Shown here: positions 1,558-26,981 of the stretch, piece by piece | Layout: each line of letters starts with the position of its first letter | How positions within the stretch are numbered: the stretch's first letter is position 1 | Assembly (NCBI GenBank): GCA_025355965.1 | Contig: JANXYR010000082.1 | Coordinates: 62,001 to 126,000, forward strand | Direction of reading: 5' to 3' | DNA length: 64,000 bases | Source: Geobacteraceae bacterium | GTDB taxonomy: Bacteria; Desulfobacterota; Desulfuromonadia; Geobacterales; Pseudopelobacteraceae | Translations under genes and position numbers: made by a program | The notes under the pieces: model-generated | What the model was told of the DNA's origin: nothing | The model's database searches: none | Seen by the model: only the letters and a program-made list of their open reading frames with translations

Positions 1558-1585
1558 TGGACAAACATTAAAAACACAGTATAAT
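1558..1585 (+). promoter_or_regulatory. Sigma70-type promoter for the PhnD-like/kinase operon
   Basis: TGGACA (1558-1563), 16-nt spacer, consensus TATAAT (1580-1585), about 57 bp before the GTG start at 1643. Confidence 0.7.
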
Positions 1586-1642
1586 CCGTCATAATTTCTG
1601 GCCGTAGACTGTCTATGCCCTCTATGATTGGAGTGATTTGTC

Positions 1643-2491: not shown

Positions 2492-2493
2492 AC

Positions 2494-9331: not shown

Positions 9332-9927
9332 TTCGCATCATACTTGCCGACGATCATGCAATGTTTCGTCAGGGGTTAATCAATCTGCTGTCCGGGGAAG
9401 ACGATATCGAGATCGTTGCACAGTGCGCCAACGGCATCGAGGCCATTGCTGCCATCGTAAAGCATCTGCCTGATGTAGCGGTTTTTGATGTAACGATGCC
9501 GGAAATGGATGGCCTCACGGCGGTCCGGCAGATGAAACGCCGGAACCTCCCCACCAAAGTTGTGATTCTGACCATGCACGATGATCCCGGTGTGCGCCAA
9601 AAAGCTGCGGCATCAGGGGCACATGCCTTTGTGCTCAAGGATAATGCTTTTGAACATCTGCTGAGTGCAATCCGGAGCGTAGCCAATTCCAGCGAAATCA
9701 TGCCATTTGCCATCCCGCAGACCGATTTTGGGGCTCTCGAATTAACCCAAAGGGAACAGCAAGTGATGCGCCTTGTAGCTCGTGGTCTCACTAACCGGTC
9801 AATTTCCGAACAGCTCGGCATCAGCATCAAAACTATCGACTCTCACCGTACAAACCTGATGAGAAAGCTGAATATCCATTCAACCGCCGAACTTGTTCGC
9901 CACGCCATAGCCACCGATATTATCTAA
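9328..9927 (+). CDS. NarL/FixJ-family response regulator
   Basis: A 199-residue DNA-binding regulator: receiver at about 2-118 with acidic pocket ADDH and phospho-acceptor in VFDVTMPEMDG, then a LuxR-type helix-turn-helix at about 135-195 (LTQREQQVMRLVARGLTNRSI, followed by SIKTIDSHRTNLMRKL). Overlaps the HisKA_3 kinase by 4 nt, forming a standard two-component pair. Targets are not visible in the window. Confidence 0.92.
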   Translation: MIRIILADDHAMFRQGLINLLSGEDDIEIVAQCANGIEAIAAIVKHLPDVAVFDVTMPEMDGLTAVRQMKRRNLPTKVVILTMHDDPGVRQKAAASGAHAFVLKDNAFEHLLSAIRSVANSSEIMPFAIPQTDFGALELTQREQQVMRLVARGLTNRSISEQLGISIKTIDSHRTNLMRKLNIHSTAELVRHAIATDII

Positions 9928-11687: not shown

Positions 11688-11707
11688 GCACATAAAAGGA
11701 GACACCT

Positions 11708-12211
11708 ATGTCCACAAATGCGCTTGTAAAAACAGACGATGTTTCAAAAAACGATGAACTGATCCAACTGGTAAGCTTCATGCTGGCTGATGAAGAGTAT
11801 GGAGTCGAAGTCCTCAAGGTGCGCGAGATCATCCGCATGCCTACCATCACAAAGATGCCCAACGTACCACAACATGTAGAGGGTATCATCAACCTGCGCG
11901 GTAAGGTCATCCCTATCATCTCCATGCGCAAACGTTTCAACCTGATGGAGAGTGAAAACAACAGCCAGACCCGAATCATCATCATGGACGTAGTTGGCAG
12001 CCTGACCGGATTCATTGTCGATTCTGTCTCAGAAGTCATCCGCATACACGGCAGTGAAATCCAGCCGCCGCCGTCTATGGTACTCTCCAGCGGCGTTAAC
12101 CAGGAGTTTATCACCGGCGTTTATAACCATGCCGAACGATTGCTGATCATTATGGATATTGACCGGATGTTTTCGGAAGATGAACGGGAAAGTTTTGGGG
12201 AGATTGGATAG
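11708..12211 (+). CDS. cheW: Chemotaxis adaptor CheW
   Basis: A 167-residue CheW-like protein: LVSFMLADEEYGVEVLKVREI at the start of the fold, NLRGKVIPIISMRKRF in the middle, and IMDIDRMF at the end. It would bridge the adjacent receptor to CheA. AAAAGGAG precedes the ATG. A clear intrinsic terminator follows, closing the receptor-cheW unit. Confidence 0.92.
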   Translation: MSTNALVKTDDVSKNDELIQLVSFMLADEEYGVEVLKVREIIRMPTITKMPNVPQHVEGIINLRGKVIPIISMRKRFNLMESENNSQTRIIIMDVVGSLTGFIVDSVSEVIRIHGSEIQPPPSMVLSSGVNQEFITGVYNHAERLLIIMDIDRMFSEDERESFGEIG

Positions 12212-12270
12212 GATTACCAATATAAGGCCATCATCTAACCCTGATGAACAGGATTTCCAACTTACTAAAG

Positions 12271-12305
12271 GACCGGTACCAGCACAAGGCACCGGTCTTT
12301 TTTTG
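12271..12305 (+). terminator. Intrinsic terminator after cheW
   Basis: GACCGGTACC (12271-12280) pairs with GGCACCGGTC (12288-12297), one mismatch, followed by TTTTTTTG. The rest of the 12212-12505 gap shows no convincing gene; a 69-codon open frame there overlaps this terminator and has no family features. Confidence 0.85.
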
Positions 12306-12505
12306 TTTTAAATTACCCCGTATGTCTTTTGCGGACAAACTTGCATTACCTCCTAACTACGCTAGACTTATTTCTATTCGAAAACCATCCAAACTCTTTG
12401 TCGGGAAAAAACTGCATATGATAGAGCTGAAGAGGTCGATCAGAGCGCTCTAAAAACACGACTAAAAAGCCGTAAAAAAGGTCTGCTTAAGGCTGGAGGG
12501 TAGCA

Positions 12506-13132
12506 ATGGGAATTGCCAAAAACAAGATTCTGCCTGTAGAGACACAAAAAAACACAGCGCCGCGCAGCCAGGCGGAAGAGCAGTTGCGCACGAAAATAGC
12601 GGGATTGAATCCACCTCGTACCAAGGAGGAGACTCAGCGACTTGTCCATGAGCTTGAGGTCCGCCAGATCGAACTGGAGATGCAAAACGAAGAGCTGTCG
12701 AGGGCAAACAAGGAATTAGACGAACACAAGCGGACAGAAGAGGCACTGTGGGAGAGTGATAGCCAGCCTCACTCGATGATGGAGGCCGTTTTCGACAGGG
12801 ACGTTTTTGTACGGCGAAATCTGGGTGATCTTGTTCTGTCGCGTAATGTGGCTACCATATTTATTGACAGTGTCCCGGAATATATCAAATCAATACGCAA
12901 TGCAGTAGCAGCAAAAGATGCCGTAGCCCTCCGTCATGCAGCACATAAACTGAAAGGGTCGGCAGCTAATCTTGCACTGCCGCAATTGTCCGAAATAGCC
13001 CGAATGATCGAATCAGCCGCCGAGGCGGGTGATCTTGAAAAGGGCAGAGATCTGTTGCAGGAGTTGGAGTTACAATTTGGGCAGGCCGAAGATGCGCTCA
13101 GAGAAGCACTGATCACACCACAAAGGAGATGA
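12506..13132 (+). CDS. Orphan HPt-domain protein with coiled-coil N-terminus
   Basis: A 208-residue protein. Residues 30-80 are a helical stretch (RLVHELEVRQIELEMQNEEL) identical in type to the segment that precedes PAS domains in large Geobacter kinases. Residues about 95-200 form a histidine phosphotransfer domain with acceptor His in LRHAAHKLKGSAANLAL. The order is that of the two ends of a hybrid kinase with everything between them missing, which suggests origin by internal deletion, though the frame is intact and GGAGG precedes the ATG. It could shuttle phosphate between the window's kinases and regulators. Confidence 0.82.
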   Translation: MGIAKNKILPVETQKNTAPRSQAEEQLRTKIAGLNPPRTKEETQRLVHELEVRQIELEMQNEELSRANKELDEHKRTEEALWESDSQPHSMMEAVFDRDVFVRRNLGDLVLSRNVATIFIDSVPEYIKSIRNAVAAKDAVALRHAAHKLKGSAANLALPQLSEIARMIESAAEAGDLEKGRDLLQELELQFGQAEDALREALITPQRR

Positions 13133-13219
13133 CAGAAAGGATGAAAAAGCCCGTTGACCGCTCCCGGTAGTTATTTATACTTTTAATCGCCTGGAGTAGA
13201 TAGGCTATAATCTTGATGT

Positions 13220-13894
13220 TTATGGCTCCACTTTAAATATATATCCCTTGCCTCTTACCGTTTCGAAAAACTTATGAGAGAAATCGCTGTCTACTTTCTT
13301 TCGCAGGTAATTGATATATACGTCGATTATGTTTGAAAAAGTTCCTACTTCTTCGTCCCAGCAATTCGCGGCGATTTCGTGCCGCGACAGTAGCTTTCCG
13401 GCGTTCTTCACAAAGTAAATTAAAACCTGATACTCTTTCGTCGTAAAAACAATCTCAGTATCAGCTCTCCAAACTCTATGATTGACTGGATCGATCAGTA
13501 GGTCCGCAACACGGATACTTGCGCCTTTGTTTTGCTTATTATGTCTTGATATTACTCTTATTCTTGCTTGTAGCTCAGGTAGATCTACTGGTTTTGCAAG
13601 ATAAGCATCTGCGCCAGCATTGAGTCCAGCGACTATATCTGAGATCTCGTAATTAGCCGAGACTATAAAAACAGGGGCCTGGTTACCGGCGTTGCGGAGT
13701 TCCAATACAACTTCTAACCCGTTTTTCTCTGGTAATTTCTGGTCAATAATAATTAGATCATATAAACCGGTAATTGTTTGGGTAAGGGCGTCAATACCGT
13801 TGTTGCATTGAGTTGCTGTGTATCCGTTAGACTCTATTGACCGTTTGATAGAGTTGGAAAGTTTCTTTTCTCCGACTGCGATAAGTATGTTCAA
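13220..13894 (-). CDS. OmpR/PhoB-family response regulator
   Basis: A 224-residue regulator: receiver at about 1-115 (LIIIDQKLPEKNG with the phospho-acceptor; ANYEISD) and a winged-helix DNA-binding domain at about 128-222 ending in DVYINYLRKKVD and ETVRGKGYIFKVEP. I chose a TTG start at 13892-13894 because AAAGGAG sits 7 nt upstream and the receiver begins there (NILIAVGEKK); the longer frame from 13984 adds 30 residues without family support. No kinase lies next to it. A palindrome upstream (13944-13963) may be its own operator. Confidence 0.85.
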   Translation of the reverse strand: MNILIAVGEKKLSNSIKRSIESNGYTATQCNNGIDALTQTITGLYDLIIIDQKLPEKNGLEVVLELRNAGNQAPVFIVSANYEISDIVAGLNAGADAYLAKPVDLPELQARIRVISRHNKQNKGASIRVADLLIDPVNHRVWRADTEIVFTTKEYQVLIYFVKNAGKLLSRHEIAANCWDEEVGTFSNIIDVYINYLRKKVDSDFSHKFFETVRGKGYIFKVEP

Positions 13895-13943
13895 TTTGGG
13901 CTCCTTTTTGTTTTGAGCTGTTGGATTTATATCCCCCTTGTTG

Positions 13944-13963
13944 GTAGTATGAAAACATACTAC
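13944..13963. promoter_or_regulatory. Palindromic operator candidate upstream of OmpR-type regulator
   Basis: GTAGTATG-AAAA-CATACTAC, a perfect 8-bp inverted repeat 50-70 bp before the TTG start. On the - strand it overlaps a possible TAGTAT -10 that is 16 nt from TTGTAC. Autoregulation is inferred. Confidence 0.5.
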
Positions 13964-14010
13964 ACGAATAGGGAATTTGTACAATAAGAAGAACCAACTG
14001 GAGTGTCGAT

Positions 14011-14130
14011 TTATGCGTAAGATAACTGGTACTTCACCAGTTCAACCAGGTTTTTCAGTTTGAGCTTTGTCAGGATACGCGTCTTGTAGGTACTGACGGT
14101 TTTTACGTTGATCGCCAGAACACCGGTTCG
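14011..14130 (-). pseudogene. Remnant of a NarL/LuxR-type response regulator (C-terminal end)
   Basis: On the - strand a frame reads VKTVSTYKTRILTKLKLKN followed by LVELVKYQLSYA and a TAA stop at 14011-14013. This is the recognition helix and C-terminus of a LuxR-family helix-turn-helix. Upstream the similarity ends near 14120-14130 with no start codon or receiver domain, so the 5' four fifths of the gene has been lost. It sits directly before the corrinoid operon on the opposite strand, marking a recombination junction. Confidence 0.75.
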
Positions 14131-14164
14131 CCGGGAGAGTGACGACAAACTTCGAGTAGTGCCC

Positions 14165-14192
14165 TTGACATCCAATAAATGAACGTTATCAT
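14165..14192 (+). promoter_or_regulatory. Sigma70-type promoter of the corrinoid/signalling operon
   Basis: Consensus TTGACA (14165-14170), 16-nt spacer, TATCAT (14187-14192), about 30 bp before the ATG at 14223. Confidence 0.65.
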
Positions 14193-14222
14193 TTTGCTAA
14201 ACTGGCGCCGACAGGGGGACAC

Positions 14223-14888
14223 ATGCTTGAACAGGTCATGAACCAGTATAACGAAGCAATCATGGATACAGATCGGGACAGAGCGCTGCATGTTGTGCGC
14301 GACGCCTTGGGTCTGGAGATTTCTCCGGAAGAGGTGGTGTTCAAAATTGTCGTGCCGGCCATCGAACTGATGATGAAATCGATCAGCGAAAACCAGGGGG
14401 TCAGTCTGGCCCAGCACTTCATGGCCGCCCAGATCGCCTCTGAAGTGGTCGATGAGATGGTGCCCCAATTTAAAAAAGCTCCCGAAATTGTCGGCAAGGT
14501 TGTCATCGGCACTTCCCGGGGGGATTTCCACGGCCTCGGCAAAAGAATCGTCAGTGGTTGCTTGAAAGCCATGATGATCGAAGTGACCGATCTCGGCCTC
14601 AATGTCGCGCCGGAGCGATTTGTAGATGAGGCGCTTGCACAGGATGCTCAGGTCATCGCCATTTCGTCCATGATGGTTCACACGGCAAAAGGGGAGAATG
14701 GCTGCCTCCGGGTTAGGCAACTCCTTAAGGAACAGGAACTTGAGAAGCGAATCCGGATCGCTGTGGGGGGGGCGCCGTACCGCTTCGACCCGGAATTGTA
14801 CAAGAGTGTGGGGGCCGATGCCTGGGCCGAGAACGGCATTACAGCGGGCAGGGTTATCACCGATCTGATCCGGGAGGTGCGCAAATGA
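14223..14888 (+). CDS. Corrinoid (B12-binding) methyltransferase-type protein
   Basis: A 221-residue protein with the two-part architecture of MtaC/MtbC/MttC corrinoid proteins: a helical cap at about 1-88 and a Rossmann-like B12-binding domain at about 90-215. The cobalt-ligand motif DxHxxG is present as DFHGLGKRIV (family norm DxHDIGKNIV), with the later conserved SSMM and GGAP segments that contact the nucleotide tail. It would carry a methyl group on cobalt between a substrate-specific methyltransferase and an acceptor. First gene of a long operon; the URO-D gene overlaps by ATGA. No substrate-specific partner (MtaB, MtbB, MttB) is in the window. Confidence 0.9.
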   Translation: MLEQVMNQYNEAIMDTDRDRALHVVRDALGLEISPEEVVFKIVVPAIELMMKSISENQGVSLAQHFMAAQIASEVVDEMVPQFKKAPEIVGKVVIGTSRGDFHGLGKRIVSGCLKAMMIEVTDLGLNVAPERFVDEALAQDAQVIAISSMMVHTAKGENGCLRVRQLLKEQELEKRIRIAVGGAPYRFDPELYKSVGADAWAENGITAGRVITDLIREVRK

Positions 14889-15922
14889 TGACGGGCATGG
14901 AACGACTCAGCGCTGCAATCAACGGCACACCGGCCGACCGGATCCCGGTTTTCTGTAACCTGCTGGACCAGGGGGCAAAGGAGTTGGGGCTCTCCATTGA
15001 GGAGTATTACAAAAGCGGCGAGAATGTTGCTGAGGCGCAACTGAAAATGCGGGCTAAATACGGCTACGATTGCCTCTGGAGCCTCTTCTACGTCGGCAAG
15101 GAGGCCGAACTGCTTGGGTGCAGCAAGATGATCTATGCCAAGGACGGCCCCCCCAATGTAGGTGAGATGATCATCAAGAAATACGACGATATCGCCAAGC
15201 TGCAGGTTCCTGACGATATAACCTCACATCCGGCTTTTGCAGAAGAGCTGAAGTGCCTCCGGATCCTAAAAGCCGAAGCGGGGGGGAAGTACCCTATCTG
15301 CGCCTACCTGACCGCCTCAATGACCATGCCGGCCCTCCTGATGGGGATAGAAAAATGGATGCAGATGCTCATGATGGGACCGAACGACCTGCGTGACGAA
15401 CTGCTAGCAAAATGCTCGGACTTTTTTCAGAAACAGATCGCCGCCTACCGCGCTGCCGGCGCCGATGTCCTCGTGTATTCCAATCCATTCGGCTCGACCG
15501 ACTTCATCCCGCGCAAATTTTTTAACGAGCTTTCACTCCCCTGGATGGAACGCGATCTCAGTCCGGGCGGGACAAATGGGATAGTTTATTATTGCGGCAG
15601 CGCCCGCTTCAACAATGTTATAGAAGCGGTCATCAACCGCCTGGGGATCGGAGTATTCTACCTGAGCCCTATGGACGATATCGCCGAGGGGAAGCGGCTG
15701 GTTGCCGGGCGGGGACTGACCTGCGGCGTTATCAACGACATCATGCTCCTCGAATGGTCGAAAGAGCAGATCAGGTCCGAAGTCAAGCGGATGATCGAAG
15801 CCGGTAAACCAGGGGGCAAATTCCTGTTCGGCACACTGGTCATGCCGTATAACATCCCTGAAGAGAACATCCGGACAATGCTGGAAGCGGCTTACGAATA
15901 CGGGAGATTTGATACGCCATGA
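14885..15922 (+). CDS. URO-D family (MtaA/MtbA-like) cobamide methyltransferase
   Basis: A 345-residue TIM-barrel protein of the uroporphyrinogen decarboxylase superfamily, in the branch that moves methyl groups from corrinoid proteins to thiols such as coenzyme M. It starts MERLSAAINGTPADRIPVF, typical of the branch. The zinc-site motif, usually HxCG, reads YYCGSA at about residues 238-243, so the His ligand appears replaced by Tyr. Coupled by ATGA overlaps to the corrinoid gene before and the DUF1638 gene after. It may be a methyltransferase with an altered metal site or a non-catalytic sensor; haem synthesis is unlikely given the context. Confidence 0.85.
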   Translation: MMTGMERLSAAINGTPADRIPVFCNLLDQGAKELGLSIEEYYKSGENVAEAQLKMRAKYGYDCLWSLFYVGKEAELLGCSKMIYAKDGPPNVGEMIIKKYDDIAKLQVPDDITSHPAFAEELKCLRILKAEAGGKYPICAYLTASMTMPALLMGIEKWMQMLMMGPNDLRDELLAKCSDFFQKQIAAYRAAGADVLVYSNPFGSTDFIPRKFFNELSLPWMERDLSPGGTNGIVYYCGSARFNNVIEAVINRLGIGVFYLSPMDDIAEGKRLVAGRGLTCGVINDIMLLEWSKEQIRSEVKRMIEAGKPGGKFLFGTLVMPYNIPEENIRTMLEAAYEYGRFDTP

Positions 15923-16509
15923 CAATGTCCCCTCCCCTGCTCCTCCTGGGGTGCGGCATTCTGCAGAAGGAGATCCGTTTTCTGATGAAGAAAAACGGCT
16001 GGCCGCTTGAGACGCACTTTCTCGACTCGGCGCTGCACATCGATTTCGACAAACTCTCCCTGGCGCTGACTACTGCACTTGACCGCCATGAGGAGCGAGA
16101 GATCATCGTTTTCTATGGCGCCTGCCATCCGCAGATGGATAAAATTCTCGATTCTGCAGGAACGTTCCGTACCGAGGGGCAGAACTGTGTGGAGATGCTT
16201 CTGGGACCTGAACAATTCACCGCTGAACTGGAACAGGGCGCTTTTTTTCTCCTTGAAGAGTGGGCGCACCGCTGGGAGCGGATCGTGACCACCACCATGG
16301 GAACAAAACGGGAGGTCATACGGGAGATGTATCAGGGGGACAGGAACTATCTACTCTGCATCACAACCCCCTGTTCCGGCGATTTCAGGGCCAAGGCAGA
16401 GGAGGCTGGCAGGCTGGTGGGACTGCCGCTCCGCTGGATGGACGTTTCCCTGGATCATCTGGAGTCGGTTATTTCTGCAGTACTAGCGCGTAAACGGGGT
16501 GAGGTCTAA
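15919..16509 (+). CDS. DUF1638 protein
   Basis: A 196-residue protein of the DUF1638 family (PF07796), recognisable from LLGCGILQKEI at the N-terminus, the middle YGACHPQMD and LLLGPEQF-type LLGPEQF, and CITTPCSGDF near the C-terminus. Several conserved Cys and His residues (GCG, ACH, TPCSGDF) could bind metal. The family has no proven function but is often encoded beside corrinoid proteins and their methyltransferases, as here, where start and stop overlap both neighbours (ATGA; TAATG). Confidence 0.85.
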   Translation: MTMSPPLLLLGCGILQKEIRFLMKKNGWPLETHFLDSALHIDFDKLSLALTTALDRHEEREIIVFYGACHPQMDKILDSAGTFRTEGQNCVEMLLGPEQFTAELEQGAFFLLEEWAHRWERIVTTTMGTKREVIREMYQGDRNYLLCITTPCSGDFRAKAEEAGRLVGLPLRWMDVSLDHLESVISAVLARKRGEV

Positions 16510-18560
16510 TGTCAGAGACTGTAACCATACTCTCGGGCGAATTTGCCTATTTGGAAGAGCGCTCCAAAAAACTGGCCCGGGACAAGTCGTACCTCCAATT
16601 GGTCATCCGCCTGATGAACAAGGTTAGCGCCGCCTCGGGGCTGGAGGATACAGTTAGCTGCATACTGCACAACATCCTCGATGTGGTGGGGGGCACCAAT
16701 ATCATGCTCTACTACTGGGTCGACAACACTATTTTCTCTGCTGATGTCTACTGCAATAAGATGCAGCTCGACGCCATTGACGACATCCAGGTACAAAAGG
16801 CTCTCACAACTCGCAAGCCCATCGAGATTGAACACGACTTCAGCGACACTCAGATGACAACCCCGGAGTTCACCAGCGCCTACACCTGGGTCTATCCGCT
16901 CTTGGTGGGCCATGACCTCGTCGGAGTCCTCAAGATGGAGAGCCTCCATATCGGCATGCGTGAGTTGTCCGAACATCTGCCGACCTTTTTTAATTACACC
17001 GCCCTGGTACTGAAGAACGAGATCCTTGGGTACACCAGACTTAAGCAGGCCTATGATCAATTGAGCGAGATGAACGAAGAACTGAAGATGGAGATCAAGG
17101 AACGGGAGCGTGCCGAAGAAGAGCTTGTTCTCGCCAAGCAGGATTGGGAGCGGACCTTTGATGCCGTCCCTGATCTAATCGCGCTGATCGATACAAACCA
17201 CCGCATTCTTCGGATGAACCGGGCAATGTCGGAGCGATTAGAGTGTCCGCCCGGGCAGGTGCCGGACTGTCACTGTTATGAGGCCATACATGGCTTGTAT
17301 GAGCCCATCAATGGATGCCCGCATGCAAGAATGTTGATCAGCGGGAAAGAGGAACATTCGGAAGTCGTGGAGCCGCGACTGGGCGGCACTTTCGATGTCT
17401 GCACGATCCCACTGCAAAACAACACCGGACAGATTGTCGGCAGTGTCCATGTCGCTCACGACATAACCGCACGCAAAAGCGCCGAAGAAGAACTCCGCAA
17501 GAGCAGGGACGAGCTGGAAGCGCGAGTAGTGGCGCGGACTGTGGAGTTGCAAAACGCCAACGAGCAGTTGCAGCATGAACTTACCGAGCGGAAACAATCG
17601 CAGGAGGCGTTGTGCAGATACTCCGAAGAGATTCACGACCTTTATAACCACGCCCCGTGCGGCTACCACTCCTTGGACAGGGACGGTGTCTACATCCGGA
17701 TTAATGACACCGAACTGCAATGGCTGGGTTACAGTCGTGAAGAAATGATCGGGAAAATGAAGTTTTCCGACCTCATTACAGAAAGTAGCTTACAACAGAC
17801 CTTTCGGAACACTTTTCCCCAGCTCAAGAAGCGGGGATGGATAAGAGACTTGGAGTTCGAGATGGTGCGCAAAGACGGCACAATCCTCCCCGTGCTCTTG
17901 AACGCTACCGCCGCCACCGATAAAGACGGCAATTTTCTGATGAGCCGCTCGACCATCTACGACATCACCGAACGAAAAAAAGAGGAAGAGAGACTAATTC
18001 TGGCAAAAGCGGCCAGCCCCCTCACAGGACTGCCGGGAAACGTAAGCGTCCAGCTTGTAATCAACAAGATGCTCTCCACGGGCACCCCCTTTGAGATCGC
18101 CTATATAGACATCGACAACTTCAAGCCGTACAACGACTTTTACGGATTTGAGAAGGGAGACCTGGTCATCAAGAGCTTGGCCGAGATCATTGTTTCGGTG
18201 GTCAACCGTTCGGATGCCAAGGAATCAAGCTTTTGCGGGCATATCGGCGGAGACGACTTTATCCTGATCACCCCTCCCTATAGAGCCGAGCAGATGGCTT
18301 CCGAAATCATTCGGGGGTTCGAGTCTCATCTGGAGCTTTTTCATGGCGAGTGCGACTTTCAGGCGGGCTGTTATACCGCCGTAAACCGCAAGGGAGCAGA
18401 AGAAGCTTTCAGGCTTCTTTCTCTCTCTTTCGGCATCCTGAACACGCTGCTGACACAAGTCGACTCTTATGCGCAACTGGCATCAATCGCCACCGAGGTT
18501 AAAAAGTCAGCCAAGAGAATACCGGGCTCTTCCATCATCATCAACAAAAGATCACAGTAG
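16509..18560 (+). CDS. GAF-PAS-PAS-GGDEF sensor protein
   Basis: A 683-residue cytoplasmic protein (no signal or membrane helix). Residues 1-190 form a GAF-type sensor almost repeated in the next gene; two PAS domains follow at about 210-330 (with several Cys/His: CPPGQVPDCHCYEAIHG, CPHAR) and about 375-495, then a GGDEF domain at about 505-675 with DNFKPYNDFYGFEKGD and active-site motif GGDDF. Likely a diguanylate cyclase. The Cys-rich first PAS could hold a cofactor. The ATG shares a base with the DUF1638 stop, tying this sensor to the corrinoid genes. Confidence 0.87.
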   Translation: MSETVTILSGEFAYLEERSKKLARDKSYLQLVIRLMNKVSAASGLEDTVSCILHNILDVVGGTNIMLYYWVDNTIFSADVYCNKMQLDAIDDIQVQKALTTRKPIEIEHDFSDTQMTTPEFTSAYTWVYPLLVGHDLVGVLKMESLHIGMRELSEHLPTFFNYTALVLKNEILGYTRLKQAYDQLSEMNEELKMEIKERERAEEELVLAKQDWERTFDAVPDLIALIDTNHRILRMNRAMSERLECPPGQVPDCHCYEAIHGLYEPINGCPHARMLISGKEEHSEVVEPRLGGTFDVCTIPLQNNTGQIVGSVHVAHDITARKSAEEELRKSRDELEARVVARTVELQNANEQLQHELTERKQSQEALCRYSEEIHDLYNHAPCGYHSLDRDGVYIRINDTELQWLGYSREEMIGKMKFSDLITESSLQQTFRNTFPQLKKRGWIRDLEFEMVRKDGTILPVLLNATAATDKDGNFLMSRSTIYDITERKKEEERLILAKAASPLTGLPGNVSVQLVINKMLSTGTPFEIAYIDIDNFKPYNDFYGFEKGDLVIKSLAEIIVSVVNRSDAKESSFCGHIGGDDFILITPPYRAEQMASEIIRGFESHLELFHGECDFQAGCYTAVNRKGAEEAFRLLSLSFGILNTLLTQVDSYAQLASIATEVKKSAKRIPGSSIIINKRSQ

Positions 18561-18707
18561 GCAGAAAACGCGAGTATCCTCATCTCCGAGATGACAACCA
18601 TAGACACTGAAGCACAAGGCAACCATGACCAAGAAGTATTGGCGGCTGCCAAGCGATGATAACATCAGCAACTGCCTAGAGAAATAATGTAGGGAGAAAG
18701 AGACCAC

Positions 18708-20297
18708 ATGTCGGAAACCGTAACCATACCCACTGGCAAACTGGCATATCTGGAGGAGCGCGCCAGAAAGCTGGCCAGGGAGAAGTCATACCTTCAGCTG
18801 GTCATGCGCCTGATAAACCGAGTGAGCGCCGCCTCGGGGTTGGAGGATACGGTAGATTGCATGATGCGCAACATCCTTGACGTCCTGGGGGGGACCAATA
18901 TCGTCCTCTACTATTGGATTGACGACGACATCTTCTCCGCCGATGTCTACGGCACAAAGTCAAAGCTGGATGCCATCAACGACGAACTGGTGCAAAAGGC
19001 GGAGACAACTCGCGAGCCGATCGAGGTTGAGCACGACTTTGGCGATACGCAAATGACACCCCCGGAGTTTGGCAAGGCCTATACCTGGGTCTATCCGCTC
19101 TTGGTGGGCAACGATCTCGTCGGCATCCTCAAGATGGAGAGCCTCCATATCGGCATGCGCGAGCTGTATGGACAACTGCCGACTTTTTTCAATTACACCG
19201 CCCTGGTACTGAAAAACGAGATCCTCGGGCACACCAGGCTGAAGCAGGCCTATGATCAATTGAACGAGATAAACAAAGAGCTGGAGGTGGAGATCGGCAA
19301 GCGCGAACAGCTCGAGGAGGAACTTCGGGAGGCCCAGGTTGGACTGGAAAAACAGGTGATGGAGCGGACAGCCGAATTGAAGTTGCAGCGCGATCACCAG
19401 GGAGAGCTGATCCATCTACGCACTGAAGAGTTACAGGAAAGAAGCCGGGAGCTTCAGGATAACCAGCAGGCCCTGATGAACATCGTAGAGGATCTCAACC
19501 AGAAGACCGAAGAGCTGGAAAAAGCAAACTCCAAATTGCAGGATCTGGACCGGCTGAAGTCGATGTTCATTGCATCGATGAGCCACGAGTTGCGGACGCC
19601 GCTTAATTCGATCATCGGTTTTTCCAGCATCATCCGCGATGAATGGCTCGGCACGGTCAACCCGGAACAGAAGGAAAACCTTGAAACCATCCAGCGTTCC
19701 GGAAAACACCTGCTCAGCCTGATTAACGACGTGATTGACGTTTCCAAGATCGAGGCGGGCAGGATCGAAACCCGCCTTGAAGAGTTCGACCTGTACGACC
19801 TGCTGACGGAAGCGGTTCAGTATGTGGAGAAGGATCTCCGCGACAAGGGGCTGGAGCTGCATCTAAAGATGGAGCATCACCCACTCTGCAGTGATAGACG
19901 TCGGCTTTTGCAGTGCGTCATAAATCTGCTGAGCAATGCGGTGAAGTTTACCGAACATGGGGAGGTCACCCTATCCTGGGCGGTTGCCGACATTGAGCAG
20001 GGCGCTGGAGAGCAGCGTCCATCCGGGTCACTATCACAACAGATCGATATTTCAGTGGTAGACAGCGGCATAGGCATCGCCGAGGAGGACATCGAACGGC
20101 TCTTCCAGCCGTTCGAACGGCTGGAATCACACCTGAGAACCACCGCGCCCGGAACCGGACTTGGACTTTATCTGACCAGGAAGTTGGTTGTGGAAGTTCT
20201 GCGTGGTGATATAATGTGCAGAAGCGATGTAGGTGTTGGAAGCACCTTCACTTTGAGAATTCCGGAGCGAATTTATGAGACAAGTACTGGTAGTTGA
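18708..20297 (+). CDS. GAF-domain histidine kinase
   Basis: A 529-residue soluble kinase. Residues 1-185 are a close paralog of the GAF-type N-terminus of the preceding gene (both start MSETVTI, LEER, LARxKSYLQLV). A coiled coil (190-285) leads to HisKA with acceptor His in ASMSHELRTPLNSI (about 290-300) and HATPase with DSGIGI and GTGLGLYL. Overlaps the single-domain receiver gene by 23 nt. AGGGAG precedes the ATG. The duplicated input with two outputs (cyclase and kinase) suggests that both read the same signal. Confidence 0.9.
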   Translation: MSETVTIPTGKLAYLEERARKLAREKSYLQLVMRLINRVSAASGLEDTVDCMMRNILDVLGGTNIVLYYWIDDDIFSADVYGTKSKLDAINDELVQKAETTREPIEVEHDFGDTQMTPPEFGKAYTWVYPLLVGNDLVGILKMESLHIGMRELYGQLPTFFNYTALVLKNEILGHTRLKQAYDQLNEINKELEVEIGKREQLEEELREAQVGLEKQVMERTAELKLQRDHQGELIHLRTEELQERSRELQDNQQALMNIVEDLNQKTEELEKANSKLQDLDRLKSMFIASMSHELRTPLNSIIGFSSIIRDEWLGTVNPEQKENLETIQRSGKHLLSLINDVIDVSKIEAGRIETRLEEFDLYDLLTEAVQYVEKDLRDKGLELHLKMEHHPLCSDRRRLLQCVINLLSNAVKFTEHGEVTLSWAVADIEQGAGEQRPSGSLSQQIDISVVDSGIGIAEEDIERLFQPFERLESHLRTTAPGTGLGLYLTRKLVVEVLRGDIMCRSDVGVGSTFTLRIPERIYETSTGS

Positions 20298-20664
20298 GGA
20301 TAACAGCGACAACTTGCGGCTCATCACCTATGCCCTGCGGCGCTACGGCTACGAGGTAATTGCCGCCGAGACCGGGATGAAGGGGGTGGAGATGGCCATA
20401 GGAGAGCATCCCGACTTCATCATCATGGACATCAACCTGCCCGACATCGATGGTCTTGAAGCAACCAGACGCATTCGTCAGAGCAGCGCGGATGGGGATA
20501 TCCCGATCATAGCCATCACCTCCAATGCGATGGCCGGAGACATGGACCGGGTTCTGGCTGCCGGATGCACCGGTTATTTTGAAAAACCGATCGACCCGTT
20601 GACCATCATGGACAAGATCCATGCCTTGCTTGGGCAAGGCGAGACTCATCTAACCGACCACTGA
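20275..20664 (+). CDS. Single-domain response regulator (DivK-like)
   Basis: A 129-residue receiver with no output domain: acidic pocket VEDNSDN, phospho-acceptor in IIMDINLPDIDG, switch Thr in AITSNAMAGD and Lys in FEKPI. Resembles DivK/CpdR-type receivers that relay phosphate or act by protein contact. GGAGCG precedes the ATG, inside the end of the GAF kinase gene, its probable donor. Confidence 0.9.
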   Translation: MRQVLVVEDNSDNLRLITYALRRYGYEVIAAETGMKGVEMAIGEHPDFIIMDINLPDIDGLEATRRIRQSSADGDIPIIAITSNAMAGDMDRVLAAGCTGYFEKPIDPLTIMDKIHALLGQGETHLTDH

Positions 20665-20703
20665 TAAACAGATAATCTTAACGTACTCCTATTAGGAGCT
20701 TCC

Positions 20704-22014
20704 ATGAAAGTCTTGATCGTTGAAGACAGTAGCAGCGCCAGAAAACTGCTGAGCATAACCTTTGAGCACTACGGTTGTACGGTCATTGAGGCAAAAGATG
20801 GAGTGGAAGGGCTCGACCTGGCATTCCGTCATAAGCCGGACGTCATCATCTCAGACGCGCTTATGCCCCGCATGGACGGTTTCCAACTGCTTAGGGGGCT
20901 AAAGAGCAATCCAGTGCTCAAATCAATCCCATTCATTTTTTACTCATCCACCTACACCGGCGAAAAGGAAGCAGAGCTGGCTATCTCACTCGGAGCGGAG
21001 GCATTTGTCGCCAAGCCGGTAGAACCGGCAAAACTCTGGGAGATAACCCGCACGATCATGAATGAGTGGGAAGCGCGTAAAAGAATACCGGCCCATGCGC
21101 CGATAGACGAGAGTGACGAGCAGTACCTGCGGGAATACAGCCATGTTGTTGCGGCCAAGCTGGAAGAAAAGGTAGCTGAACTGGAAGATGCGCTGACACT
21201 GCGCAAACAGGCCGAAGAGCAGCTGCGCACTCTTAATGCCGATCTGGAGCAGCGGATAGCCATTGAGGTGGAGAAAAATCGGGAAAAAGATCACGTCATG
21301 GCACATCAGGCACGCATGGCGGCCATGGGCGAGATGCTCGGCAATATCGCCCATCAGTGGCGGCAGCCGCTTAACAACACCGCGCTTATCGTGCAAAATC
21401 TCCAACTCGAGTTCGAAGATGGAGTTCTCACACCCCACTCATGCAACGAATATGTGCAAGAGTGCCTAAAATCCCTGACGTACATGTCCCGCACTATAGA
21501 TAACTTTAGTGCATTTTATCAGCCTGATTGCAGCAGACAACTATTCGATCTGTATCACACCGTCACCGAAGCTATTTCACTGGTAAGGGAAGAGCTGGAA
21601 TCCCATGCTATTACCGTTAAGCTGGTCAAAGAGTACGATTCGAGTGTAAACGGCTATAAGAAAGAATTCTCCCAAACACTTTTAAATATCATCCAGAACG
21701 CCAAAGAAGCGATTCTGTCCCGGCAGCCACCTACGCCTTTTGTTGAGATTGTCTGCTCACAAAAGGGTACATCAGCACTGGTTACTGTCAGTGACAATGG
21801 CGGGGGGATCTCCTCAGAACTTATGGACAAAATTTTTGACCCGTATTTCACCACCAAGTTCATGTCCCAGGGGACTGGAGTGGGGCTTTATATGTCCAAG
21901 ATGATCATCGAAAGACATATGGGCGGAACGATCTCGATTACCAATAATGCGGCCGGTGCGGAAGTAACCATTGAACTCCCGCTGGAACAGCAAGCGGCTA
22001 CCGACAACCAATAA
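20704..22014 (+). CDS. Receiver-histidine kinase (REC-HisKA-HATPase)
   Basis: A 436-residue soluble kinase. Receiver at about 1-122 ([31 protein letters not shown]), coiled coil at 140-205, then a kinase core whose acceptor lies in GNIAHQWRQPLNN, a subtype frequent in Geobacter, and HATPase with SDNGGGI and GTGVGLYM. Input is therefore phosphorylation rather than a ligand. AGGAG precedes the ATG. Its receiver is closely related to that of the next gene. Confidence 0.88.
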   Translation: MKVLIVEDSSSARKLLSITFEHYGCTVIEAKDGVEGLDLAFRHKPDVIISDALMPRMDGFQLLRGLKSNPVLKSIPFIFYSSTYTGEKEAELAISLGAEAFVAKPVEPAKLWEITRTIMNEWEARKRIPAHAPIDESDEQYLREYSHVVAAKLEEKVAELEDALTLRKQAEEQLRTLNADLEQRIAIEVEKNREKDHVMAHQARMAAMGEMLGNIAHQWRQPLNNTALIVQNLQLEFEDGVLTPHSCNEYVQECLKSLTYMSRTIDNFSAFYQPDCSRQLFDLYHTVTEAISLVREELESHAITVKLVKEYDSSVNGYKKEFSQTLLNIIQNAKEAILSRQPPTPFVEIVCSQKGTSALVTVSDNGGGISSELMDKIFDPYFTTKFMSQGTGVGLYMSKMIIERHMGGTISITNNAAGAEVTIELPLEQQAATDNQ

Positions 22015-22048
22015 ATGTATAGATCAACGTTACAATTAAGAGGCAGCC

Positions 22049-24199
22049 ATGAATGTGTTAATAGTTGAAGACAATTCCAATGACCGGAGACTGCTGCGTT
22101 ACACACTGGAACACCATGGCTGTACCGTCAGCGAGGCTCAGGACGGAGAGGAAGGACTTGAGCTGGCCACGCGTATCCAACCGGATATCATCATCTCCGA
22201 CGCACTCATGCCGCGCATGGACGGTTTCAATTTACTGCGCGCCCTAAAAGCGAATCCTGAGCTTTCGTCTATTCCCTTCCTGTTCTATTCGGCAACCTAT
22301 ACCGGAGAGCCTGAAGAAAGACTGGCCCTTTCGCTTGGAGCAACGGCCTTTGTCGTCAAACCGACGGAACCCGAAAATCTTTGGAAAAAAATCTGCGCAA
22401 TCATGGAGTCACAGAAAGCGCAACAAGGCGTGATTTCACAGCCGGCAATGGATGAGAATGAAGAACATTTCCTCAGGGAATATAACCGGATTGTTGCCAC
22501 CAAGCTGGAAGAGAAGGTCGCGGAGCTGGAAGAGGCCATTATTCAACGCAAACAGGACGAAGATGAGCTGCGCAGAGTCAATGCGGAACTGACATTAGAG
22601 GTCGACGAGCGCAAGCGGGCCGAGAATGCTCTTAAAGAGCAGGAACAGGAGTTGGCAACGATCTTCGAGAATGCCCCGTTCGTGATGCTGCTCCTTGATG
22701 GAGAGCGAAAGGTCCACAGGGTAAATGCACAGGCATGTTCATTCGCCGGTTCATCGGTCAGCGACATGATTGGACGACGAAGCGGCGAAGCACTACGCTG
22801 CCTTTATGCCCTCGATACCCCAGAGGGGTGCGGCTTTGGCCCGCATTGCCCTGACTGTATCGTTCGGCTCACCGTTCTGGACACATTTGAAACCGGGCAG
22901 AGTCATCATCAGGTGGAAACGAGACTGCCGTTTTTACTCCAAGGGAAAGAGCAGACCATAACATTTCTCTTTTCAACCACAAAAGTAATGGTTGCTCATC
23001 AGGCAATGGTTCTCCTCAGTCTTCAGGACATCAGCAACTACAAGAAACTTGAATCGCAGCTGCACCATGCACAAAAAATGGAATCGATCGGCACCCTGGC
23101 CGGCGGCATTGCCCATGATTTCAATAACATCCTGACGGTAATTATCGGTTACGGTGATATTTCCCTCATGAGTATGGATGCTGACGATCCCCTGCGGCAT
23201 AATATAGAATTTATGCTGCAAGCGTCTCGCCGGGCGGCATCCCTGGCGCAGGACATCCTCCTTTTCAGCAGGAAACAGATCTGTGACAAAAAAAGTGTTG
23301 ATCTGAACGAGATTGTGAGGTCAGTGGACAAGTTCATGCGGCGGATTATCGGCGAGGATATTACCTGCACAATCACACTGGATGACGGAACGTTGTCAAT
23401 CCTCGCCGATGCACATCAGCTTGAGCAGGTTCTGATGAACTTTGCAACCAATGCACGTGATGCCATGCCAAATGGCGGTTCCTTATCGATTACCACCAAA
23501 CAGATCAAGCTTGACGAGGAGTTTATTGCCGCCCATGGCTTTGGCAGTAACGTCATGTATGCCGTCCTTACCGTGACAGACAACGGTATTGGTATGAATG
23601 AGGAGACGCGGCTGAAAATCTTTGATCCATTTTTTACGACAAAAGAAATCGGCAAAGGGACAGGGCTCGGCCTGGCGGTCGTCTACGGTATTATCAAGCA
23701 GCATGACGGACAGATAACGGTCGTCAGCAAACCGGGCCATGGAACGACATTCCGGATATTTCTTCCCTTAACATTATCTACTGATAATGAAATTAAAGTG
23801 AACTCAACATATGACAAACCGGACAGGGGAACAGAGACAATACTTTTGGCAGAAGACGACGAGTCATTACGAAACATGGTTCTGTCGCTGCTCGAGAGTT
23901 TCGGCTATAAGGTCATCATTGCAGTTGACGGAGAGGACGCCGTGCAAAAATATCGGAAGAACATGAAACAGATCCAGCTTCTTCTGTTCGACGTGGTCAT
24001 GCCGAAGAAAAACGGAATAGATGCCTATAATGAAATCAGAGATATTAAACCGGGCATCAAGGTACTATTTGCAAGCGGCTACGCAACTGATGCTGTTCAG
24101 CTGAAAACCCTTGCCGACGACAATGCCATGTTTATATCCAAACCGTATTTACCATCAAATCTGCTGGCAATCGTGCGAAGCATGCTTGACAAATCGTGA
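22049..24199 (+). CDS. Hybrid kinase REC-PAS-HisKA-HATPase-REC
   Basis: A 716-residue soluble hybrid kinase. N-terminal receiver at about 1-122 ([19 protein letters not shown]), coiled coil, PAS at about 205-330 with a Cys-rich stretch ([11 protein letters not shown]), kinase core with acceptor in [17 protein letters not shown], HATPase with DNGIGM and [10 protein letters not shown], and a C-terminal receiver with [11 protein letters not shown] at about 595-715. Last gene of the corrinoid-led operon, converging on nifEN with 22 nt between stops. Its core is the nearest relative in the window of the truncated kinase at 47490-48605. Confidence 0.88.
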
Positions 24200-24221
24200 C
24201 GTTGGCGTCAAAAGCAAGCCA

Positions 24222-26981
24222 CTAGTTATGCGCCAGCTTCTGCGCCTCCTTGGCATTTGCCTGGAACAGGTTGGCAGTTTCGAACACCAGGTTCAGCGTA
24301 CCACGATAACCCACCCACACCTTCTGGTGGGCACCTAAACGGTCAAACACCGGCAGGCCGGCCCGCAGATGTGCACCGATCTTGAGCTTACCAGCCGCCT
24401 GCCGACCATTGGAGTTGGCCACGATCAGATCGGCACCTTTGGCAGCCTCCTCCAGATCCTCCAGATCCCCGACAAAAACATTGTCGCACGGCAGGGCGTC
24501 CAGCCCGCGTGTACGGGTAGCAGAAAGTGCCGCCTGAATTTCGCACCCCATCCCGGCTAGAAAACCTGTCAATGTTTTTAGATTATCCGACTCCAGTGCG
24601 ATCGCCACCTTCTTGTTGCCGAACTGGTAATGACTGTCCACCATAGCATCCATCAGACGGCTGCGCCATCGACGATGCTTTTCCGGAATAGGACGAGAGC
24701 TGATTTCGGAAAGGGCCTCCATAAAACAGTCAGTTTCGGCCAGACCGGTCAGTGAGGTAAAACCGTAGACCGGAATGGCAAAATTTTCTTTCAGCTTTAA
24801 AGCTGCCTTGGCAAGACTATCTCCGACATATAACGTCGCAATACTGCGGCCGGCTTTTCGGATATCTTCAACCGCTATGCCACCGGTTGAAAGTGGAGAT
24901 ACGACCTCGTCTATATGACCATCCATGGCGTTGGAAATATCGGGGATGCAGAGTACCGTCAGGCCGAATGACTCAACCAGTTCCTTCAGCTCTTCCACAT
25001 CAGCCGGGGTCAGGTGCGCGCCTGGGAGCAGGTTGACCTGATCCTTTACGACATCGCCACCTTCCGGCAGGCTGGTAACAATCGCCTCCACCGCAGCAGC
25101 ATACCCTTCCTGCATCGAACCGCAGTAATCAGGCGTGGAGGCCCATATGATCGGGACACAGCCGTGTTCAGGATGTTCTTCCCGAAACTGCTTTATAGCG
25201 CTGCTTACATCATCACCCATGGTCTCAGTCAATCCGGTTGTCATCACACCAACTACTTCAGGATGGAACTTCTCTATTACCCGCCCGATACCCTTTTTCA
25301 GGTTCTCCCAGCCACCAAAGATCGCGCTGTCCTCGCTCATGGCAGTAGCATTAAGGGCAATCGATTCCTTGTAATGCCGTGACAACTGCAGCCGGATAAA
25401 GGTTGTGCACCCCTGGGCGCCATGCAGCAGGCCAAGCATGTTGTTGATACCCAGATAGGCCATGGTGGCCCCAAGAGCAGGCGAGTTCTTCTGCGGGTTG
25501 ACCGTAGCCGCTTTGCTTGAAACCTTGACTCGGGAGACCGAGATATCCTCTGCCATAAATGTCTCGGCATGTCCAGCCATGGCCGTTAGATCGACATTCA
25601 GCTCCTCATCACTCTTCTCCCACGGTGCCGGAGTGTTCAGGGTCGGCCAGATCGGGTTATTAACGGTCATATCCAGCTGTTTTGAAAAGGTAACCATCCC
25701 TTCATACCCGGCATACGGATGTGAACGACCATGATTGATATCCATAAAAGGAGTTTTGGTCTTCAGTGCCAGAAACTTGGTCTTGCCACCGGCCACGATC
25801 AAGTCTGGCCTCTTCTCGCGCATGACTGCCAAAAGACCGGCCGTCGAGGTGTCCTCAATAATCTGGGCATCCTTATGCATCAGTCCCTTCATGCGGTAAA
25901 AATCCTCCAGGGTTGAATTCTGCGTCCCGGCCGCCAGAACCTCCACCCCCAACTCGCGCAGGGAATTGACCATCGACCATGTTTTGACACCACCGGTGAA
26001 CAGCACCGCCGTCTTCCCCTCCAGCCTCTTCCGGTAGGGTGCGATGGCGGTGCGGCATTTTTCCTCTTCCTCCTCGATCAGCCGCTCTACACGATCCTGC
26101 ATGACCCGCTTTTCCAGGCCGCCTACAATATCATCAAGTTCGCGGGCTATGTCACGCAGAGCCTTGGCGGTATCGGTCATGCCGTAGAAAGATTCCTCCA
26201 GGTAGGGCATGCCATAGGTTTTCTGCATTTTCTTGGCAAGGTTGGTCAGCGATTTGGAACAGATAATGATATTGAGCTTGGCCCGGTGAGCATAGCGCAG
26301 CTCCTCGAACTTCGAATCACCGCTGAAGCAGGATAGGACCTGGATTCCCAGTCTGTCAAAAAGCGGCAGCATCCCCCACAGGTCACCGGCGATGTTGTAC
26401 TCACCGATCAGATTTATCGGGTATTGACCCAGCATTGGTGGCTCAGTCGTGCCGATCACATATTTGAAGAGGATCTCGCCAGCCAGGCGGTTGCCGATAT
26501 TCTTGTCGCCGATGAAACCGGGAGTGTTGACAGGGATAATCGGAATTGCGACTTTTTCTGACGCAGCCGTGCAGACAGCTTCCACATCGTCACCGGTCAT
26601 GGCGGTCACACAGGTGGCATAGACGAAGATCGCCCTTGCCTGGTCCTTGTAGCGCTCGGCAAGATCAAGGATGGCCCGGTAAAGCTTCTTCTCGCCGCCG
26701 AAGATGACGTCGTTTTCCAGCATCTCGGTTGTAAAACCACGCCGATATAGCTGAGAATCGGATGAGCGGGCACCACGGTTATCCCACGAGTTACCGGCAC
26801 AGCCGATCGGACCATGCACCAGATGAATGGCATCGGTGATCGGCATCAACACGACGCGTGCCCCGTCATAGGCACAGGAACGCTCGGTCCCCTCGCCCGG
26901 CTCCGATTTCTTGCAGAATTTTGGCGCACCCTTGTCGTTGGTTTCGCAGTCGGTTACATCGTAATAATCGGGCTTTGCCAT
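24222..26981 (-). CDS. nifEN: Fused NifE-NifN, FeMo-cofactor assembly scaffold
   Basis: A 919-residue single polypeptide combining both scaffold subunits that convert NifB-co to FeMo-co. The NifE half (about 1-455) has the cluster cysteines in SCAYDGAR, GPIGCAGNSWDNRG and YATCVTAMTGDD. After a linker of about 30 residues the NifN half (about 485-919) has LLHGAQGCTTF, a SEDSAIFGG segment and TGLTETMGDD. Separate nifE and nifN genes are the norm; a fusion is known in Geobacter-type genomes. The ATG at 26981 follows GGAGACC. It has its own sigma54 promoter and leader attenuator and is monocistronic. Confidence 0.95.
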   Translation of the reverse strand: MAKPDYYDVTDCETNDKGAPKFCKKSEPGEGTERSCAYDGARVVLMPITDAIHLVHGPIGCAGNSWDNRGARSSDSQLYRRGFTTEMLENDVIFGGEKKLYRAILDLAERYKDQARAIFVYATCVTAMTGDDVEAVCTAASEKVAIPIIPVNTPGFIGDKNIGNRLAGEILFKYVIGTTEPPMLGQYPINLIGEYNIAGDLWGMLPLFDRLGIQVLSCFSGDSKFEELRYAHRAKLNIIICSKSLTNLAKKMQKTYGMPYLEESFYGMTDTAKALRDIARELDDIVGGLEKRVMQDRVERLIEEEEEKCRTAIAPYRKRLEGKTAVLFTGGVKTWSMVNSLRELGVEVLAAGTQNSTLEDFYRMKGLMHKDAQIIEDTSTAGLLAVMREKRPDLIVAGGKTKFLALKTKTPFMDINHGRSHPYAGYEGMVTFSKQLDMTVNNPIWPTLNTPAPWEKSDEELNVDLTAMAGHAETFMAEDISVSRVKVSSKAATVNPQKNSPALGATMAYLGINNMLGLLHGAQGCTTFIRLQLSRHYKESIALNATAMSEDSAIFGGWENLKKGIGRVIEKFHPEVVGVMTTGLTETMGDDVSSAIKQFREEHPEHGCVPIIWASTPDYCGSMQEGYAAAVEAIVTSLPEGGDVVKDQVNLLPGAHLTPADVEELKELVESFGLTVLCIPDISNAMDGHIDEVVSPLSTGGIAVEDIRKAGRSIATLYVGDSLAKAALKLKENFAIPVYGFTSLTGLAETDCFMEALSEISSRPIPEKHRRWRSRLMDAMVDSHYQFGNKKVAIALESDNLKTLTGFLAGMGCEIQAALSATRTRGLDALPCDNVFVGDLEDLEEAAKGADLIVANSNGRQAAGKLKIGAHLRAGLPVFDRLGAHQKVWVGYRGTLNLVFETANLFQANAKEAQKLAHN

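Follow-up and report, generated by a model that had tools for sequence, protein, structure and literature searches.

A corrinoid protein, a URO-D methyltransferase and DUF1638 coupled to signalling genes: a candidate sensory module in diverse bacteria

Why would a bacterium place genes for corrinoid-dependent methyl transfer directly in front of a series of signalling genes? This question is raised by positions 14223-24199 of a 64,000-nt stretch of a Geobacteraceae genome (contig JANXYR010000082.1; the whole stretch is hereafter the window), in which a corrinoid protein (COR), a URO-D methyltransferase and a DUF1638 protein, together named the triad, are followed by five signalling proteins. 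A check of open reading frames (ORFs) found all eight on the + strand, at the coordinates that an earlier note on this DNA had given. That note had also proposed that the corrinoid/methyltransferase pair acts as a sensory input, with DUF1638 as the link to the signalling proteins, a proposal that the comparative counts and the DUF1638-kinase fusions reported here support. A role of the triad as signalling input is well supported. That it forms a dedicated corrinoid-methyltransferase sensor, in which DUF1638 would pass the cobalt or methyl state to the GAF domain of a kinase or of a cyclic di-GMP (c-di-GMP) enzyme, is in our judgment rather probable.

Conservation of the triad and its signalling neighbour

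We examined the neighbourhoods of all 47 DUF1638 loci present in a first set of 98 genomes, including the window's own, of which 34 carry the gene. The COR-URO-DUF1638 order is contiguous in 42 of these loci, and in all 42 a signalling protein is encoded next to the triad or fused to it; in the remaining five (L102-L106) there is neither a contiguous triad order nor a kinase next. The neighbour is a histidine kinase (HK), next or fused, in 40 triads, two of which have it fused to DUF1638. The two triads without a kinase directly next are that of the window, followed by a GAF-PAS-PAS-GGDEF protein, and L056, followed by a GAF-PAS protein, with a kinase two genes further on. The window genome itself carries a second, distant triad (L061, C82:20000-39000, triad at 7160-9494), whose DUF1638 is 30% identical and which is followed by a GAF-PAS-HK-REC hybrid kinase.

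As a control, we drew 75 regions, chiefly high-ranking matches, from a pool of 394 genomes of the phylum (DUF1638 in 101 genomes, 147 matches; the remaining matches include some long open frames, possibly fusions), together with L102-L106, giving 81 DUF1638 domains. With a gap limit of 150 nt, the next gene was a signalling gene in 2 of the 78 non-triad loci with enough right-hand sequence (L157 and L174), a count that rises to 3/78 if the limit is widened for L168, whose kinase lies ~230 nt on. The only two contiguous triads among the control regions are both coupled to signalling, by a GAF-HK-REC protein encoded next in L170 and by fusion in L163 (scored by Pfam scan; the local hidden Markov model (HMM) set has no HD-GYP model).

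A profile of the triad DUF1638 was also run against 84,980 species genomes, and 173 relatives were recovered with two peptide patterns derived from the triad DUF1638; the best 80 of these 173, named loci below, are thus selected for a triad-like DUF1638. Eighteen of the 80 had already been counted in the first set, such that the two sets are not additive. Among the testable named loci, both COR and URO-D precede DUF1638 in 74 of 75 (56/57 without the 18 shared loci), and the next gene is a signalling gene in 74 of 76 (56/58), a count redone by open reading frame after simple distance had given 64/76. The possibility, raised in the earlier note, that homologous triads always lack the kinases was thus not borne out, either by the 42 contiguous triads or by the named loci. 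One exception is L186, where a phosphonate-type binding protein lies between triad and kinase; the other, L224, is discussed below.

By record title, the hosts include Methylomonas, Methylobacter, Gallionellales, Rhodocyclaceae, Mariprofundus and Terasakiella, as well as Bacteroidales, Verrucomicrobia, Planctomycetota, Hydrogenedentes and Nitrospirae. Many of these records are metagenome bins and possibly misbinned; L198 (labelled Bacteroidales) and L199 (Alphaproteobacteria) have an identical domain table except for one frame boundary, so that at least one of these bins may be mislabelled. Isolates, again by title, include Methylomonas sp. LW13, Methylomonas methanica, Mariprofundus sp. KV, Geobacter argillaceus, Citrifermentans bremense and Geobacter sp. 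OR-1. COR and URO-D form a single protein in seven loci (L193, L194, L197, L201, L202, L212 and L216; Pfam-confirmed for L201). Eleven loci, the majority with Methylomonas, Methylobacter or Methylococcaceae in their titles (L223, L227, L230, L242-L244, L247-L249, L251 and L259), have a REC-GGDEF protein after the GAF-kinase, the version in Methylomonas LW13 (L244) being REC-PAS-GGDEF-EAL by Pfam. When plasmid carriage was looked for, the only DUF1638 that came up was a distant one on a plasmid of Azoarcus, where its setting is metabolic.

In a DUF1638 tree of 102 rows, obtained by a quick search and showing long branches, a branch with 95% SH-aLRT separates the 66 type I triad rows from the rest. 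Over 53 loci, and uncorrected for shared ancestry, the distances of COR, URO-D, DUF1638 and GAF correlate pairwise (r 0.83-0.89), the kinase catalytic domain correlating less well with these four (r 0.66-0.76). These observations bear on a further explanation, namely that the linkage in the window is a coincidence or reflects read-through of unrelated genes. Such an explanation could draw on genome G003, where a block of four signalling genes stands beside nifEN without a triad, but it would have to account for the signalling gene next to all 42 triads and in 74 of 76 named loci, for the fusions and for the correlated distances; the triad, named-locus and control counts make it very unlikely. 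The arrangement is a widespread module, not a peculiarity of one genome. The earlier note had held that no system of this layout was described; a published description of a COR-URO-DUF1638 signalling module was indeed not found in the open-access literature searched, but the layout is not the one-genome curiosity that this could suggest.

DUF1638 and the GAF domain behind it

The DUF1638 protein of the window (15919-16509, +, 196 aa) matches PF07796 with 107.8 bits, above the gathering score of 27. Its conserved Cys12, Cys69 and Cys90 are invariant in 33 triad sequences; over 102 sequences including non-triad DUF1638, Cys69 and Cys90 are invariant and Cys12 is present in at least 90%. (One core alignment took in 41 of the 42 triad cores, one of the two L053 cores being left out.) In several loci the protein is joined to its signalling partner: DUF1638, GAF and HK form a single protein in L055, L196 and L250 (the last by local HMM only), DUF1638 is fused to an HK in L071, and in L163 it runs on into GAF-PAS-PAS-HD-GYP (Pfam). 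The slot behind DUF1638 keeps the GAF domain as the output varies between HK, HK-REC, GGDEF (window), GGDEF-EAL (L257) and HD-GYP (L163). In the window, genes 4 (16509-18560, +, 683 aa) and 5 (18708-20297, +, 529 aa) have an N-terminal domain in common, with 77% identity over 195 aa, followed by PAS-PAS-GGDEF in the former and by HisKA-HATPase in the latter; both GAF assignments are sub-threshold in Pfam (E 0.069 and 0.093, respectively). These fusions, together with the output exchange behind the GAF, point to DUF1638-to-GAF as the likely signal path.

The AlphaFold2 model of DUF1638 (pLDDT 96.3) gave no Foldseek match below E 0.001, the best being 1.4e-3, and no PDB sequence relative was found (best E 0.75). 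A LacI/periplasmic-binding-protein-type fold was considered, given VIA-align Z values up to 9.1, and was not taken as homology. For the L055 fusion, a 394-residue piece was modelled (pLDDT 93.6, pTM 0.73), giving DUF1638, a long helix, a GAF fold and a second long helix; the part with the GAF fold is the domain that genes 4 and 5 of the window carry at their N-termini.

DUF1638 is also found fused to a hydantoinase/oxoprolinase-type domain, presumably ASKHA-like, in L119 (6719-9673), beside a URO-D and a corrinoid protein; L137 looks similar by eye. Such a fusion could possibly be a one-piece corrinoid activase. According to the accessible text of one report, a DUF1638 protein is needed, with a RamA-like protein, for methionine synthesis in Phaeobacter inhibens, and a role in corrinoid protein reactivation has been proposed for other organisms (PMC5764234). 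The hydantoinase-type fusion and the Phaeobacter role suggest that the general function of DUF1638 is most likely the handling of corrinoid proteins, and that in the triads this factor has been joined to a kinase.

Corrinoid chemistry and what the module may sense

COR (14223-14888, +, 221 aa) is a B12-binding protein (PF02310, E 4.9e-21) with the base-off motif DFHGLG (DXHXXG), which is kept in all 42 triads of the first set and in 74/74 rows of a larger alignment. Its best PDB match is the trimethylamine corrinoid protein 7xcn, and it scores 96.4 bits against the methyltransferase corrinoid protein model TIGR02370, below the NCBIfam cut-off of 215.3. Likewise, the MtaA/CmuA-like URO-D protein (14885-15922, +, 345 aa) belongs to the fold family (PF01208, 158.1 bits; cut-off 23.9) and stays below the cut-off of TIGR01463 (MtaA/CmuA; 101.5 bits against 235.4).

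The triad URO-D can be aligned with MtbA (4ay7), whose zinc ligands we take to be H-x-C ... C, the positions coming from the alignment. At these places the window protein has Y, C and, at the third, no Cys. The complete zinc triad is found in 0/42 triad URO-Ds of the first set and in 0/115 rows of the larger alignment (98 type I and 17 type II; these are not 115 loci, up to 18 loci being counted twice), and it is incomplete in L163 and L170 as well. The two alignments place the third zinc column differently, and neither shows a Cys at that column in any triad row. The loss does not resemble decay: clade-specific polar residues of type I URO-Ds are near-invariant, e.g., Q52, Y198 and D285 in 98/98 rows, such that the pocket looks re-made.

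A Fer2-Raco-type, RamA-like activase (RACE) is encoded within 41 of the 80 named loci. Counting L039 from the relatives, 42 regions have it, and in at least 29 of these it stands directly 5' of COR, a lower bound because the ORF picker called no COR in seven of them; in L240, also among the 42, it is a 404-aa frame on the opposite strand. Pfam confirmed RACE for L244 and L039. Among ten genomes hand-picked from the named loci, the operon RACE was matched by coordinates in seven and is the only one found in six of these, Geobacter sp. OR-1 having a second; in the genome of L256 RACE lies elsewhere. The window genome yielded one RACE-type protein (411 aa, L279 1686-2918), which is linked to neither triad and by eye lacks a ferredoxin domain, its sequence starting with the ASKHA part, so that activation of the corrinoid by RACE in this organism would at best occur in trans.

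In the window genome the URO-D family comprises one HemE-like protein (E 1.6e-143) and the two triad copies, and MttB was not found; there is no other URO-D-type or MttB-type corrinoid methyltransferase. One of its two pterin-binding proteins, an 808-residue frame on C28 that also has a B12 domain, is taken for MetH, and a few of its 17 B12-binding matches (15 over the cut-off) were identified. The ten other genomes carry one HemE-like and one triad URO-D in nine cases and the triad copy alone in one, and each has DUF1638 exactly once.

The quantity sensed could be a methyl donor, the cobalt redox state or a cobamide. Based on these data, we infer a ligand, direct contacts, a state that is read, a direction and an output for the sensor as follows. 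Where present, the RACE/RamA-type activase would set the corrinoid protein to Co(I). COR and URO-D, with its re-made, non-thiol active site, would form the receptor, and a specific, probably methylated small molecule would bind the URO-D pocket, thereby altering or methylating the corrinoid (methyl-Co, Co(I), Co(II)). DUF1638, as a corrinoid-protein accessory, would read this state and hand it to the N-terminal GAF of the next gene's product, the GAF would switch the histidine kinase or c-di-GMP enzyme, and the further REC and kinase proteins would relay the signal. In its boldest form, which we put forward tentatively and hold somewhat less probable than not, this would be a new class of signal transduction spread across many phyla, in which capture of a methyl group from a methyl donor, environmental or metabolic, onto a protein-bound corrinoid is the signal and the methyl-cobalt bond serves as a covalent, RACE-resettable memory, read by DUF1638 and handed to interchangeable GAF-kinases, diguanylate cyclases and c-di-GMP phosphodiesterases.

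The main rival to this methyl-level mechanism is a redox or oxygen sensor, in which DUF1638 would read Co(I)/Co(II), URO-D would be only a scaffold or cap and the methyl group would play no part. The absence of the zinc triad from all 115 triad URO-D rows fits such a sensor, as does RACE, which would return Co(II) to Co(I) in the loci that have it. Several hosts named by title (Geobacter, Methylomonas, Gallionellales and Mariprofundus) live at oxic-anoxic borders. However, the retention of URO-D in 74 of 75 testable named loci and its near-invariant clade-specific residues speak for a specific ligand and against a bare scaffold; we regard the redox sensor as rather unlikely.

A further alternative reverses the direction of the signal: the triad would be the output, a small metabolic demethylase operon regulated by neighbouring kinases that sense something else. 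Known methylotrophic pathways use COR/URO-D pairs in metabolism, where RACE too has its known role as activase, and the mec cassette, as far as its accessible description goes, pairs corrinoid methyltransferases with a two-component system (PMC9768040). Nevertheless, the window cluster (14223-24199) contains no catabolic gene, as the earlier note had observed, and the window genome has neither another URO-D methyltransferase nor MttB. DUF1638 is moreover fused N-terminally to kinases, and the arrangement survives the swap of an entire output domain. This makes a demethylase operon improbable.

Several observations weigh against the sensor that we favor. RACE is present in only 1 of 40 regions from relatives (L039), and none was found in two of the ten genomes examined (those of L222 and L209). 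Among 18 other URO-Ds, which include the triads L163 and L170 and hence 16 non-triad proteins, the zinc triad is found in 7/16 non-triad URO-Ds and lacking in 9/16, such that its loss alone is not specific; nor does this loss exclude methyl transfer from non-thiol donors. The lack of RACE in most relatives' regions and in two of ten genomes, and the many non-triad URO-Ds without the zinc triad, slightly lower the odds that we assign to the sensor. L224 (Candidatus Methylobacter oryzae, 3603-6588) keeps RACE-COR-DUF1638 with neither URO-D nor kinase next, probably as a reduced or decaying copy. The DUF1638 family is not inherently a signalling family, since the Phaeobacter protein serves methionine synthesis. 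Finally, the partners occur apart from the triad: in G003 (L274) a block of GAF-HK, REC, REC-HK and REC-HK-REC genes adjoins nifEN without one, and four genomes of genus g10 have the GAF away from any triad, with a SpoIIE fusion in both of those that were scanned.

The window operon, known systems and significance

In addition to genes 4 and 5, the window cluster encodes a single-domain response regulator (REC; 20275-20664, +, 129 aa), a REC-HK (20704-22014, +, 436 aa; its HisKA below cut-off) and a REC-PAS-HisKA-HATPase-REC hybrid kinase (22049-24199, +, 716 aa). Pfam backs B12-binding, URO-D, DUF1638, PAS/GGDEF, HisKA/HATPase_c and REC domains across these genes, and a HisKA plus HATPase_c kinase together with REC domains makes it a two-component cluster. 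The junctions are, in gene order, -4 (ATGA), -4 (ATGA), -1 (TAATG), +147, -23, +39 and +34; of the many ATGA-type overlaps described earlier, two are ATGA, the rest being one TAATG and one 23-nt overlap. The single good promoter of that description exists as a sigma-70-like consensus match (TTGACA-16-TATCAT, 11 of 12; 14165-14192, +), 30 nt 5' of the COR start codon and the best among 13 promoter-like sites in 13100-24300 (shuffled sequences gave 9.2 +/- 3.8 sites). The whole neighbourhood is one of signalling, since the upstream part (10074-13984) encodes an MCP, a CheW and an Hpt protein as well as an OmpR-type response regulator, the last on the - strand; downstream, a fused nifEN gene (24222-26981, -) converges on the cluster.

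The account of the eight genes needs correction in one respect: the relative G003 indicates that the set is composite. Because its kinase block stands by nifEN without a triad, the window operon would consist of a triad-plus-GAF unit joined to a nifEN-side kinase block. The G003 nifEN, downstream of the block, is 90% identical to that of the window, and G003 has a triad with its own GAF-kinase at another place. By eye, MCP-like and CheW-like genes lie upstream of the block in L274, placed as in the window.

nifEN also occurs near the triads of L032, L035 and L036/L042 (one region of G014), and L037 and L044 have only proteins 28-32% similar to NifEN near the triad, L037 (G066) showing two nitrogenase-like ORFs at 1574-4668 (30-32%). 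In the named loci, nifEN matches are only edge fragments in L185 and L220, both of the window's own group, a weak test because 6-kb flanks fall short of a nifEN placed as in the window. A nitrogenase link was set aside as a feature of the module and treated as local neighbourhood. Co-occurrence of the triad with the GAF N-terminus, which the earlier note had proposed to search for, was found for 28 of the 33 GAF matches in the 98 genomes, and strict exclusivity was rejected: of the other five, one lies by nifEN in a triad-bearing genome and four are in genus g10. There, L275 (7368-9113) and L276 (2561-4345), with no triad nearby, each encode a protein that combines this GAF with PAS and a SpoIIE-type phosphatase, the L276 gene being followed by a REC-GGDEF protein.

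Pathways of the MtaA/MtbA/CmuA type combine an MtaC/MtbC corrinoid protein, a URO-D methyltransferase and RamA. The triads resemble them in the URO-D fold, in the DXHXXG corrinoid protein and, in about half of the named loci, in an adjoining RACE. They differ in that no acceptor step or substrate methyltransferase is seen, the zinc triad is lost, the window proteins score below the NCBIfam cut-offs and nearly all loci are coupled to kinases or c-di-GMP enzymes.

The nearest published arrangement found is the mec cassette of dichloromethane degraders, which according to its accessible description is catabolic and PocR-based, with a MecA kinase carrying PocR, the corrinoid protein MecB and the methyltransferases MecC/E/F/I (PMC9768040). 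It likewise unites a corrinoid protein, an MtaA/CmuA-family protein and a histidine kinase in one cluster; unlike the triads, it serves dichloromethane degradation with several methyltransferases and has PocR instead of the triad GAF, and DUF1638 is not among the cassette genes tabulated there (PMC9768040). No PocR domain came up when the window kinases were scanned with Pfam at E 0.001, or when both window N-termini and eight other proteins were scanned at E 0.1.

DUF1638, corrinoid methyl transfer and a RamA-like activase also come together in methionine synthesis of Phaeobacter inhibens and in growth of Ruegeria pomeroyi on glycine betaine (PMC5764234, PMC12478193). There the role of DUF1638 is metabolic and the accessible texts mention no kinase. 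B12 photoreceptors (CarH, photocobilins and related cobalamin-domain proteins) also employ a corrinoid protein domain for signalling. As far as the accessible text goes, they are fused to their own output domains (PMC11796333), whereas the triads use a separate methyltransferase pair, and the CarH model gave 21.7 bits for a cut-off of 400.

In many unrelated bacteria, a B12-type methyl-transfer set thus appears to have been turned into a sensing front end, not used for metabolism. The reading can be tested in cultivable strains, among which Methylomonas sp. LW13 has a complete genome. If true, corrinoid methyl transfer and its ATP-driven reactivation, an entire enzyme chemistry, would act as a sensory receptor. 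One branch of DUF1638 would thereby acquire a function, and it would become clear why the only corrinoid-activase gene detected in methanotrophs and iron bacteria (Methylomonas, Mariprofundus and Gallionellales among them) shares an operon with a GAF signalling gene.

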